A stretch of DNA of 64,000 bases from Streptomyces sp. SUK 48 (lineage in GTDB: Bacteria; Actinomycetota; Actinomycetes; Streptomycetales; Streptomycetaceae), in the NCBI RefSeq assembly GCF_009650765.1, contig NZ_CP045740.1:2976001-3040000 (forward strand), written 5' to 3'. Both the position numbers and the translations under genes were made by a program. This document shows, one piece after another, positions 16,969-39,751 of the stretch. How positions within the stretch are numbered: the first letter of the stretch is position 1; each line of letters begins with the position of its first letter. A model generated the notes under the pieces. It was not told where the DNA came from and searched no databases. It saw only the letters and a list, made by a program, of their open reading frames with translations.

Positions 16969-18308
16969 ATGGCCCCGAACACCGCCTCCTCCGCCCTCTG
17001 GCCCGCTCCGCACGCGAGCGGCGCCGTCGACGCCACCGTCCATGTGCCGGGGTCCAAATCGGTCACCAACCGCGCCCTGGTGCTGGCCGCCCTCGCCTCC
17101 GAGCCCGGCTGGCTGCGCCGCCCGCTGCGCTCCCGGGACACCCTGCTGATGGCGGAGGCCCTCCGGGCCATGGGCGTGGAGATCGAGGAGACGGTGTCGT
17201 CCAGCTCCTCCGTCGCGGGCGGCCCGGACGGCACCGGCGAGGCATGGCGGGTGCTGCCGACCGGCCTGCGCGGCCCGGCCACGGTGGACGTCGGCAACGC
17301 GGGGACCGTGATGCGCTTCCTGCCGCCGGTGGCCGCGCTGGCCGACGGCCCCATCCGGTTCGACGGCGACCCGCGGTCGTACGAGCGTCCGCTGCACGGC
17401 GTGATCGACGCGCTGCGCCGGCTGGGCGCGCGGATCGACGACGACGGCCGGGGCGCGCTGCCGCTGACCGTGCACGGCGGCGGGGCGCTGGACGGCGGCC
17501 CGGTGTCGATCGACGCGTCGTCCTCCTCGCAGTTCGTCTCCGCGCTGCTGCTCTCGGGCCCCCGCTTCAACCAGGGCGTCGAGGTCCGGCACACCGGTAC
17601 GAGCCTGCCGTCCGTGCCGCACATCCGGATGACGGTGGACATGCTGCGCGCGGTCGGCGCCCAGGTGGACACCCCGGAGTCGGGCGGCGAGCCGAACGTA
17701 TGGCGGGTGACGCCGGGCGCGCTGCTGGGCCGGGACCTGACGATCGAGCCGGACCTCTCCAACGCGCAGCCCTTCCTGGCGGCGGCGCTGGTGACCGGCG
17801 GCAAGGTGGTGATCCCGGACTGGCCGGAGCGCACCACCCAGCCGGGTGACCGGCTGCGCGAGATCTTCACGGAGATGGGCGGCTCCTGCGAACTCACCGA
17901 GTCCGGGCTGGTGTTCACCGGCTCCGGCGCGATCCACGGCATCGACGTCGACCTCGGCGACGTCGGCGAGCTGACCCCGGGCATCGCGGCCGTCGCCGCG
18001 CTCGCCGACTCCCCTCGACGCTGCGCGGGGTGGCCCATCTGCGGCTGCACGAGACGGACCGGCTCGCCGCGCTCACCAAGGAGATCAACGAACTCGGCGG
18101 CGACGTCACGGAGACGGCCGACGGTCTGCACATCCGCCCGCGCACTCTGCACGGCGGCACCTTCCACACCTACGAGGACCACCGCATGGCGACCGCCGGC
18201 GCGATCATCGGCCTGGCGGTCGAGGACGTACGCATCGAGAACATCGGGACGACGGCCAAGACCCTGCCGGACTTCCCCGAGCTGTGGACCGGGATGCTCG
18301 GGCAGTAG
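16969..18308 (+). pseudogene. aroA: EPSP synthase gene with one-base frameshift
   Basis: 5-enolpyruvylshikimate-3-phosphate synthase, sixth step of the shikimate pathway. Residues 1 to about 348 read normally (VPGSKSVTNRALVLAA substrate loop, GNAGTVMRFLPPVAAL, SYERPLHGVIDALRRLG). After AALADSP the frame breaks at the CCCC run 18011-18014. The remainder ([20 protein letters not shown] ... [16 protein letters not shown]) continues in the next frame to TAG 18306-18308. Restoring one C gives a normal 446-residue protein. Both halves look intact, so this is either a very recent mutation or a sequencing/assembly error; the gene is normally essential for prototrophy. Confidence 0.9.
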
Positions 18309-18317
18309 GGACACGCC

Positions 18318-19328
18318 ATGCGCCGCTACGGCAAGCACACCGACGAGGACGACATCCGCACCCGCCCCAACCGCAAGGGCAACCGGCCGCGGACGAACAT
18401 CCGGCCCAAGCACGAGGACGCGGCCGAGGGGCTGGTCCTGACCGTGGACCGGGGGCGGCTGACCTGCCTGGTGGAGGACCGGGTGGTGATGGCGATGAAG
18501 GCGCGGGAGCTGGGCCGCAAGGCGGCGGTGGTCGGGGACCGGGTCATGCTGGTCGGCGATCTGTCCGGCGCGAAGGACACGCTCGCGCGGATCGTGCGCA
18601 TCCAGGAGCGGGCCTCGGTGCTGCGGCGCACGGCGGACGACGACGATCCCTACGAGCGCGTGGTGGTCGCCAATGCCGACCAGCTCGCGATCGTCACCGC
18701 CCTCGCCGACCCCGAACCGCGGCCCCGGCTGATCGACCGCTGCCTGGTCGCGGCGTACGACGGGGGGCTCGAACCCCTGCTGGTGATGACCAAGTCGGAC
18801 CTGGCCCCGCCGGACAAAATCCTGGAGCTGTACGGCGATCTGGACATCCCGTACGTGGTCACCAGCCGCGAGGAACTGGAGAACGGGGACGCGGCGGACC
18901 GGGTGCGGGAGTTCCTCGACGGGCGGATCACCGCGTTCGTGGGGCACTCCGGCGTGGGCAAGACGACCCTGGTGAACGCGCTGGTGCCACCGGAGCGGCG
19001 GCGTTCGACGGGGCATGTCAACGCGGTGACGGGGCGCGGCCGGCACACCACCACCTCGGCGCTGGCGCTGCCGCTGGCGGGCGACGACGGCTGGGTGATC
19101 GACACTCCGGGCGTCCGGTCGTTCGGCCTGGCGCACATCGATCCGTCCCGGGTCATCAACGCCTTCCCCGACCTGCAACCCGGTACGGCGGACTGCCCGC
19201 GCGCGTGCAGCCACGACGAGCCGGACTGCGCGCTGGACGCGTGGGTGGAGGCGGGGCACGCGGACCCGGCGCGGCTGTACTCGCTGCGGCGGCTGCTGGC
19301 CACGCGGGAGCGCACGGAAGGCGACTGA
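18318..19328 (+). CDS. rsgA: ribosome small-subunit biogenesis GTPase RsgA
   Basis: 336-residue circularly permuted GTPase that checks the decoding site of the 30S subunit. Order of motifs: OB-fold N-terminus (about 35-105), G4 TKSD (about 156-159), G1 GHSGVGKTTL (about 213-222), G3 DTPG (about 257-260), then a C-terminal zinc module with CPRACSHDEPDC. Starts nine bases after the aroA stop, so probably in the same transcript. Family length normal. Confidence 0.93.
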   Translation: MRRYGKHTDEDDIRTRPNRKGNRPRTNIRPKHEDAAEGLVLTVDRGRLTCLVEDRVVMAMKARELGRKAAVVGDRVMLVGDLSGAKDTLARIVRIQERASVLRRTADDDDPYERVVVANADQLAIVTALADPEPRPRLIDRCLVAAYDGGLEPLLVMTKSDLAPPDKILELYGDLDIPYVVTSREELENGDAADRVREFLDGRITAFVGHSGVGKTTLVNALVPPERRRSTGHVNAVTGRGRHTTTSALALPLAGDDGWVIDTPGVRSFGLAHIDPSRVINAFPDLQPGTADCPRACSHDEPDCALDAWVEAGHADPARLYSLRRLLATRERTEGD

Positions 19329-37306: not shown

Positions 37307-39030
37307 TCAGACCTCGTACGGCTGGACGACGATGAAGTTGCCGGGCGCGCCCCGGAACTGGAGGTTGACGCTCTCGCCGGTGTCGCCGGGGTAGGCGTTG
37401 CGGCGCATCCGGACCTGGCTGGAGACGATCACCTGGGCCGCCGCCGACCAGGCCACCACCGCGTTGCAGTCGGCGAAGGTGGTCGGGGTGACCGGCAGTA
37501 CCACGGGCGTGCCGTGCGTCTTGACGACGATGGTGCCGGTGCCCTGGAACTGCATCGTGAACAGCGCGCCGCCGGGGATGCCGTGGCCCTCGATGCGGCG
37601 GACCTCGTACTGGAGGGTCTCGTCGAAGGCGAGCACGTTCTCGGCGGAGACGCAGATCGCGTCGCCCTGGAGCTCGATCGGGTGCAGATAGGTGGCGTTC
37701 TCGGCGAGGAACACCTGGCCCTGGCCGGTGCAGCGCATCAGCTGCATCTCCTGGCCGGTGGCGTTGCCGACGATACGGCCGGCGATACCGGCGCCCTTGT
37801 AGCTGAAATCGACCTTGCCCTGGTAGAGCACCATGCTGCCCTGCTTGGCCAGCACCGGCTGCCCGCCGATGCCGAGGTCGACGCGCATGAGCTTCTTGTT
37901 CTGCTGCGTCCAGCGCTGCCCGGTGGGCGTCTCCTTGAACTTCTGGAGGGCCGCGCCCACACCGGCACCGCCCTGCGGGGCGCCCTGGGGCACGCCGTAG
38001 GAGGCGGTCTGCTGACCGGGGACCTGGCCGTAGCCCGGGGGCATGGGCGCGCCGGGCTGGGCACCGTGGCCGGGGGGCAGCGGGGCGGTGGGCTGACCTC
38101 CGTAGGAGGGCTGCGGGGGCCGGCCGCCGTACGACGGCTGCTGCGGCGGCCGGCCGTAGGGCGCGGGTGCCGGGGCGGGCGGCGGGACGGTGCCCGCCGG
38201 CCCGGGGGCGGGGCCAGCGGGGCGATGACCGTCGGCGCGCCGTGCACGTCCGGTGCGGCCGGGGCCGGGGGCGGGGTCTGGCCGGGGGGCGTGAAGCCCT
38301 GCGGCGGCGTGTCGGCGGGGGCCGGGAAGCCCTGCGGGGGCGTGGACCCCGGCGGTGTGAAGCCCTGTGCGGGCGTATCGCCGGCCGGTGGGGCGGCGAA
38401 GGCGGGCGGGGCGGCGGTCTCGCCGGGCGGGGCGAACGCGGGCGGGGCGAAGCCGGGGGCGCCGGACTGCGGCTGCTGCTCCGGGGCGGCGGGCGCCTCC
38501 TCCTCCAGCACCTCGCCGCCGAAGTTCTTCAGCAGCGCCTCCAGGCCGCCGTCGAAGCCCTGTCCGACCGCGGCGAACCGCCAGGCGTCCTTGAAGTAGA
38601 TGTCGCCGAGCATGACGGCCCGCTCGGTGGAGAACTCCGCGCCGGTGAAGGAGTACCGGGCGACCTCCTCGCCGCCCGCGACGATGCGCAGGTAGCCGGG
38701 ACCGACCTGCGACATCTGCCCGGCGCCGTCGATGGTCGCCGTGAAGGACAGCTTGCGGATGCCGTCCGGAATCCGGTCGAGCGTGACCCGGAACGACTCC
38801 GTGTCGCCCGCCTGGGCACCGAGCAGCTGGAGGGACTCCTCCGGCGACTTCGGCTGGTTGAAGAAGACGAAGTACCGGTCGTCCGAGAGCCGTTCCTCGG
38901 CGTCCAGGCCGAAGCAGCTGATGTCGAAGGTCAGTCCGGGGCCGGCGATCTGCACGCCTACGTACAGATCGGTGCCCGCCGTGAGGTCACTGATCCGGGC
39001 CTTGTGGCCGCGTTGGAATTCCCTGGCCAT
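37307..39030 (-). pseudogene. TerD-AIM24 fusion gene with a frameshift in the linker
   Basis: The N-terminal ~190 residues from ATG 39030 are a TerD domain (MAREFQRGHKARISDLTAGT, YFVFFNQPKSPEESLQLLG, VMLGDIYFKDAWRFAAVGQG), a calcium-binding fold of tellurite/stress proteins. A Pro/Ala-rich linker follows (FAPPGETAAPP, TPPQGFPAP). Around 38199-38206 the frame shifts by one base. A Pro/Gln/Tyr/Gly linker then continues in the new frame into a full AIM24 domain (about 38040-37307) ending IVVVQPYEV. Adding one base restores a single ~574-residue protein. Either an assembly error or a split in which the AIM24 half would need its own start. Confidence 0.8.
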
Positions 39031-39178
39031 GCGATACGACCGTCCCCCATCCCGAGATATGAGTGCGTCGCGCCAGGCTAACGGCTGTGGCCGACAACCA
39101 CCCCGGCCGGTCCCGGTCGGTACAGACCCGGTACAGAACCGATTCCGGCCACACACACGGGGGACGCGCGGGGTCGGG

Positions 39179-39751
39179 TCACTCGCCCCGTGTGCCGGGC
39201 GCGTGCGGCAGCCGGGCGGCGGCGACCACGCCCTCCAGGTAGCCGCGGGCCCGCTCGGTGCGCGGATACGCCTCCAGCAGCCGCCAGAAGTCGGGGCCGT
39301 GCCCGGGCACCAGAAGGTGCGCCAGCTCATGGCAGAGCACGTAGTCGATGACGTACTCGGGCATGCCCTGGAGCCGGTGGGAGAGGCGGATGCTGCCCTC
39401 GGCCGGGGTGCACGAGCCCCAGCGGGTGTTCTGGTTGGTGACCCAGCGCACGGAGGCCGGGCGGGCGCCGCCGTCGAAGAACTGCGCCGACAACCGCTCG
39501 GCGCGCTCGGTCAGTTCCGCGTCACCGAGCACCCGCCGGCTCTCCTGGGCGGCGAGCTTGTCGAGCATGACGGTCACCCAGCGTTGCTCCTCCGCCTTCG
39601 ACATCCGGGCGGGGATCAGGACGACGGTGCGGTCGCCCTCGCGATACGCGGAGACCGTCCGGCGGCGTCGGGCACTCCTGCGGACCTCGATCGCGCTCGT
39701 CGCGCTGCGCTCTGTCTTTCCGGCGCGGTGCTGAAGTGGGTCGGCGGACAC
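39179..39751 (-). CDS. M48/YgjP-like metallopeptidase
   Basis: 190-residue soluble protein of the YgjP (DUF45) family. It has the family motif NTRWGSCTPAEGSIRLSHRL and the zinc site YVLCHELAHLLVPGHGPDFW (HExxH plus a downstream His). The N-terminus is basic (SARRRRTVSAYREGDR). A homologue also sits in this neighbourhood in mycobacteria as I recall. The 220-bp gap to the ThiF-like gene holds no recognisable gene. Confidence 0.88.
   Translation of the reverse strand: MSADPLQHRAGKTERSATSAIEVRRSARRRRTVSAYREGDRTVVLIPARMSKAEEQRWVTVMLDKLAAQESRRVLGDAELTERAERLSAQFFDGGARPASVRWVTNQNTRWGSCTPAEGSIRLSHRLQGMPEYVIDYVLCHELAHLLVPGHGPDFWRLLEAYPRTERARGYLEGVVAAARLPHAPGTRGE

Follow-up and report, generated by a model that had tools for sequence, protein, structure and literature searches.

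Whether Streptomyces sp. SUK 48 is without a working EPSP synthase, or whether only its assembled genome is, is the question raised by the aroA locus of this strain. The gene lies in a stretch of 64,000 nucleotides of contig NZ_CP045740.1 (positions 2,976,001 to 3,040,000 of the forward strand in assembly GCF_009650765.1), here called the window, and its reading frame breaks at a short run of C. A first-pass annotation had left the choice between a wrong sequence and an unusual strain. That choice was apt, and the first alternative is favoured here, the same lesion being found in seven other genes that include the sole adenylate kinase gene (adk) found. Judged from the assembled sequence and its relatives, the missing C in aroA is very probably an assembly error and not a defect of the strain.

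The aroA frame break

The first-pass annotation had described an EPSP synthase frame that is good as far as AALADSP and resumes one frame away, and both the open reading frames (ORFs) and the complementary family matches of the two pieces confirm this description (Table 1). The CCCC run on which it had placed the lesion is present in the sequence at 18011-18014. The span from 16969 to 18308 measures 1340 bases, which is 446 codons and a stop minus one base, and the 446-residue enzyme expected on joining the pieces fits this length. The stop codon of the second piece occupies 18306-18308. Past the C run, the 490-codon ORF of the assembly no longer resembles the enzyme; it encodes unrelated sequence until its stop at 18441, within rsgA.

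The two pieces share the AroA family (3-phosphoshikimate 1-carboxyvinyltransferase; TIGR01356, PF00275). In the NCBIfam aroA model TIGR01356, the first piece covers positions 2-318 and the second 322-413 of 415, and the two are therefore complementary parts of one protein, jointly covering the model in one order and on a single strand. The locus differs from the rest of the family in that, as assembled, no single ORF attains the TIGR01356 cut-off of 287.25 bits: the 490-codon ORF scores 257.8 bits and the second piece 96. HETDRL, DHRMA, and the K-LP lysine motif that follows them have a substrate-binding or catalytic role in EPSP synthase. All three are encoded in the DNA after the break, where they align with EPSP synthases of the PDB, and the assembled aroA ORF does not encode them. 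Among the matches listed, the kin of this AroA are mostly Streptomyces proteins of 438-456 residues. A species-mate with an intact aroA was also sought in the protein collection, where the best match listed is 95% identical, so that none can be claimed among the best 120 of 5522 matches (scoring was performed on the 7999 candidates sharing most words).

Table 1. Features of the aroA locus and other genes of SUK 48 that are one base short. Positions are those of the window unless given as chromosome positions.
Feature	Position	Strand	Evidence
aroA (EPSP synthase), first part, in frame until the break	16969..18014	+	ORF list; TIGR01356 2-318 of 415; best listed database protein 95% identical across this part
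C run, one base shorter than in all 109 other loci compared	18011..18014	+	Sequence; locus comparison
Remainder of aroA, next frame, usual stop	18015..18308	+	TIGR01356 322-413; matches to PDB EPSP synthase chains; relaxed selection not seen
Out-of-frame tail added by the 490-codon ORF (16969-18441), entering rsgA	18015..18441	+	ORF list
rsgA, intact, downstream of aroA	18318..19328	+	ORF list; TIGR00157 139.4 bits (cut-off 100)
TerD and AIM24 domain gene, broken near 38200, where a linker is rich in G/C	37310..39330	-	Open in 1/1 relative
Methyltransferase-like gene (labelled from sequence)	chromosome 3,114,484		Open in 1/1 relative
ABC-transporter ATPase gene (labelled by the author), one-base-short G/C run	chromosome 3,116,442 (L142 near 16442)	-	One 340-residue ORF in 1/1 relative
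adk, the sole adenylate kinase gene found, broken at a C run that is one base short (chromosome 3,510,716)	chromosome 3,510,402-3,511,063 (L156:10402-11063)	-	Open in 19/19 relatives
Penicillin-amidase-like gene, one base short			Open in 8/8 relatives
Zincin-like gene, one base short			Open in 7/7 relatives
Gene, one base short	chromosome 5,618,332		Open in 4/4 relatives

Comparison with other Streptomyces

Comparison with other Streptomyces upholds the claim that one C is missing. All 109 other loci are one base longer at the C run, and in each of them both aroA pieces stand in one open frame, the window's own copy being the sole exception among 110 tested. These 109 loci comprise 29 of 149 other matched genomes and 80 of 472 confirmed relatives; they are not fully independent, at least one genome being apparently represented twice (L007 and L041) and further such pairs being possible. 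Where the aroA relatives lie in named genomes, the loci listed are Streptomyces without exception (80 of 80). Over approximately the last 400 bases, DNA identity is highest with S. malaysiense and S. hygroscopicus NBRC 3401 (96% each), and between positions 18000 and 18035 of the window S. malaysiense differs solely in the length of the C run. The one-base difference in run length is absent from all relatives compared. On these alignments the frame break is no product of chance and is private to the SUK 48 assembly among the loci compared.

The piece after the break carries the marks of a maintained coding sequence. Over its 95 codons, uncorrected proportions yield a ratio of 0.14 against S. 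malaysiense (five synonymous and two nonsynonymous differences) and of 0.24 against S. hygroscopicus NBRC 3401 (six and four). Both values lie within the range of 0.06 to 0.42 spanned by 21 pairs of intact relatives, these being the comparable pairs among 28 (the row for L007 is void because the locus was taken from the wrong strand, the same genome apparently being represented by L041). No relaxed selection was seen in the second piece against these 21 intact pairs, so the lesion, if real, must be very young, and an old pseudogene is rejected on the same grounds.

A second EPSP synthase and the rest of the pathway

The assembly consists of a single contig of 8,341,671 bases (8.34 Mb) and is rated 100% complete. 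A full-genome search for a second aroA, which the first-pass annotation had proposed as a check, was run with PF00275 and returned five matches: the two aroA pieces and three other proteins. The latter match MurA models best and, at 52, 69.5, and 21.2 bits, stay far below the 287.25 required by aroA; one exceeds the murA cut-off, one exceeds the cut-off of a MurA subfamily only, and one falls below both. Across the whole single-contig genome, this search found no second EPSP synthase and only MurA-type relatives.

Four other steps of the pathway are in good order. Intact genes for shikimate dehydrogenase, chorismate synthase, and 3-dehydroquinate synthase, all above an NCBIfam cut-off, lie in a cluster near 6.62 Mb together with shikimate kinase, an intact ORF that exceeds its Pfam cut-off though it falls below the NCBIfam cut-offs. 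Among the pathway genes tested (aroA, aroE, aroK, aroC, and aroB), only aroA is broken.

One MurA-like protein (L004:1453-2772), below both the MurA and the AroA cut-offs, adjoins a metallophosphatase-like ORF (the author's label), and it may be part of a biosynthetic cluster.

Other genes one base short

A codon-model scan followed by comparison with relatives identified eight genes that are one base short in 754 kb of the same assembly, aroA included (Table 1). The scan covered 334 kb round the window and a further 420 kb in 21 stretches of 20 kb; a 327 kb contig of a relative (G003, which appears to be S. hygroscopicus NBRC 3401) served as the control. It returned 36 raw candidates in SUK 48 (14 in the 334 kb and 22 in the 21 stretches) and 15 in the control. 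A sorting rule marked 22 and 11 of these, respectively, as ordinary neighbouring genes, leaving 14 and four. Five of the 14 were set aside by eye, each with a start codon 9-18 bases upstream, and nine remained, of which seven proved one base short against relatives and two were not counted. The rule was too strict: a retest of its nine exclusions in the 334 kb recovered the ABC-transporter ATPase gene at 3116442, raising seven to eight. Eight in 754 kb is a lower bound, covering strong mid-gene breaks only and a retest of nine of the 22 excluded cases.

The two candidates not counted are of other kinds. An adenylation-domain gene could be compared with a single distant relative (72% identity) and showed an ambiguous gap. 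An ABC-permease-like gene on the minus strand (the author's label; L165 near 8049) is without 26 bases that two relatives have, which shifts its frame; this loss may be real or an assembly slip.

Depth of comparison varies among the eight. Three genes (at 3014200, 3114484, and 3116442) were each compared with one relative, and for the gene at 5010921 the single-base gap is direct in six of seven relatives, the seventh showing several mixed gaps with the frame open. All eight breaks fall at a run of C or G of at least four bases; positions no more than three bases from a run of this kind make up 10.2% of the coding sequence in the 334 kb.

The same lesion is thus present at runs in unrelated genes, the sole adk found among them. 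At the adk break, all 19 relatives are one base longer. A genome search with PF00406 found only the two pieces of one adk, both of which score as adenylate kinase. Adenylate kinase is taken as essential in bacteria, and its loss should be lethal. The adk lesion should be an assembly error because a living culture with adk truly broken is hard to imagine. This case is the weightiest of the set: the aroA lesion matches it in type, size, direction, and sequence context.

Controls against a relative's assembly

A two-way test over the same region asked of each candidate break whether the other genome has one open frame. Of 14 SUK 48 candidates, four correspond to one open frame in G003, nine have two frames in both genomes, and one is without a pair. 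None of the 15 G003 candidates corresponds to one open frame in SUK 48; 11 have two frames in both and four are without a pair. SUK 48 therefore carries more breaks than its relative's assembly (4/14 vs 0/15), on small numbers. The control contig of 327 kb showed no such breaks, with one weak case (314065) among the four without a pair.

A separate gene-by-gene scan flagged three of 163 genes against SUK 48 and, in the reverse comparison, 11 of 171. Taken at face value, these counts argue against the SUK 48 assembly being the worse one. In ten of these 11 the codon scores of the opening part are those of non-coding DNA, like over-long ORF starts. The eleventh is the ABC-transporter ATPase break of SUK 48 itself, missed in the first direction, and the scan therefore undercounts. 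Of the three genes flagged against SUK 48, only aroA is by eye a clear break.

Run lengths were also compared with G003. Among one-base gaps in G/C runs of at least four, SUK 48 is shorter in six and longer in five within coding ORFs, and shorter in eight and longer in nine outside them, with low power at approximately one error per 100 kb. Many gaps of this set fall in spurious ORFs or where the alignment is poor, and it was used only for the run counts and for the gap at 3116445. The absence of an overall asymmetry in run length against G003 is expected at this error rate and gives no support.

Explanations of the missing base

The assembly error is the best explanation of the findings taken together: the base is missing against all relatives compared, no second AroA was found, four pathway genes are intact, the second piece is kept, and seven other genes carry the lesion. 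It is likeliest because a vital gene elsewhere in the genome, adk, is broken in the same way. In the organism, aroA would in all likelihood be an intact and ordinary EPSP synthase gene, and the DNA of the cell would carry the extra base. The assembly probably dropped one base from a short C run, the kind of site at which long-read consensus is known to be weak in G+C-rich DNA, and the genome may rest on long reads without full short-read correction. The aroA break is most likely ordinary and not a real feature.

The main rival is a young auxotrophic mutation. Here the base would be truly missing, and the sequenced culture would be an aromatic auxotroph growing on rich medium, its protein cut before the last quarter and extended by unrelated sequence. 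The break is indeed present in the sequence, no second AroA was found in the genome to stand in for the lost one, and the selected appearance of the second piece also fits a mutation too young to leave a trace. Such a mutation has to be set against four other pathway genes that are intact, and unrelated recent mutations explain poorly the like lesions in the sole adk found and in six further genes, leaving this reading improbable. Some Streptomyces have a second aroA, and in SUK 48 another EPSP synthase might have made this copy dispensable and left it to decay. The whole-genome search yielded only MurA-type relatives, however, and the second piece is without relaxed selection; decay of a dispensable copy is accordingly very improbable, and is refuted to the extent that the single contig is the complete genome and that a PF00275 search detects every EPSP synthase.

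The short run might instead be real, with some full-length AroA still arising when the ribosome or RNA polymerase slips backward on it. The lesion sits at a C run, and adk has the same geometry. Yet all 109 relatives compared have a continuous frame, and the codons at the break, as read from the sequence, do not form the usual slippery heptamer, X XXY YYZ. The familiar frameshifts of proline tRNA at C runs move one base forward, which is the wrong direction here. Slippage at aroA is hence very hard to credit, and programmed ribosomal frameshifting is rejected, its shift site being unconserved among the 109 relatives compared, which all read the gene in one frame. A wider form of the idea would make all the short runs real, with routine slippage at C and G runs yielding full-length AroA, adenylate kinase, and the other products. 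This form, which would amount to a genome-wide tolerance of one-base deletions, is scarcely credible.

Residual errors in long-read Streptomyces assemblies

An assembly error of this kind has published counterparts. A PacBio assembly of Streptomyces albus SM254 with a QV above 50 after polishing received 205 indel corrections from Illumina data, nearly all in G/C homopolymers (PMC4832174). Three other Streptomyces assemblies kept 70, 295, and 335 SNPs or indels, which on correction were overwhelmingly single-base insertions in homopolymers, according to a second report (PMC6923854). The SUK 48 lesions resemble these residual indels in being one-base errors at short G/C runs of a G+C-rich single chromosome (PMC4832174; PMC6923854). 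The published assemblies were made on a long-read platform, as that of SUK 48 may have been, and SUK 48 is likened to them from its assembled sequence.

The rate is similar as well. Eight lesions per 754 kb scale to approximately 89 per 8.34 Mb, or approximately 77 without aroA, the gene that drew attention to the region. This estimate of approximately 77-89 per genome falls inside the published range of 70-335, near its low end (PMC4832174; PMC6923854).

The consequences extend beyond aroA. By this rough scaling, some tens of further SUK 48 genes may carry false breaks, and claims of gene loss in this genome need checks against reads. A model or annotation built from the SUK 48 genome would wrongly list the strain as without EPSP synthase and without adenylate kinase.
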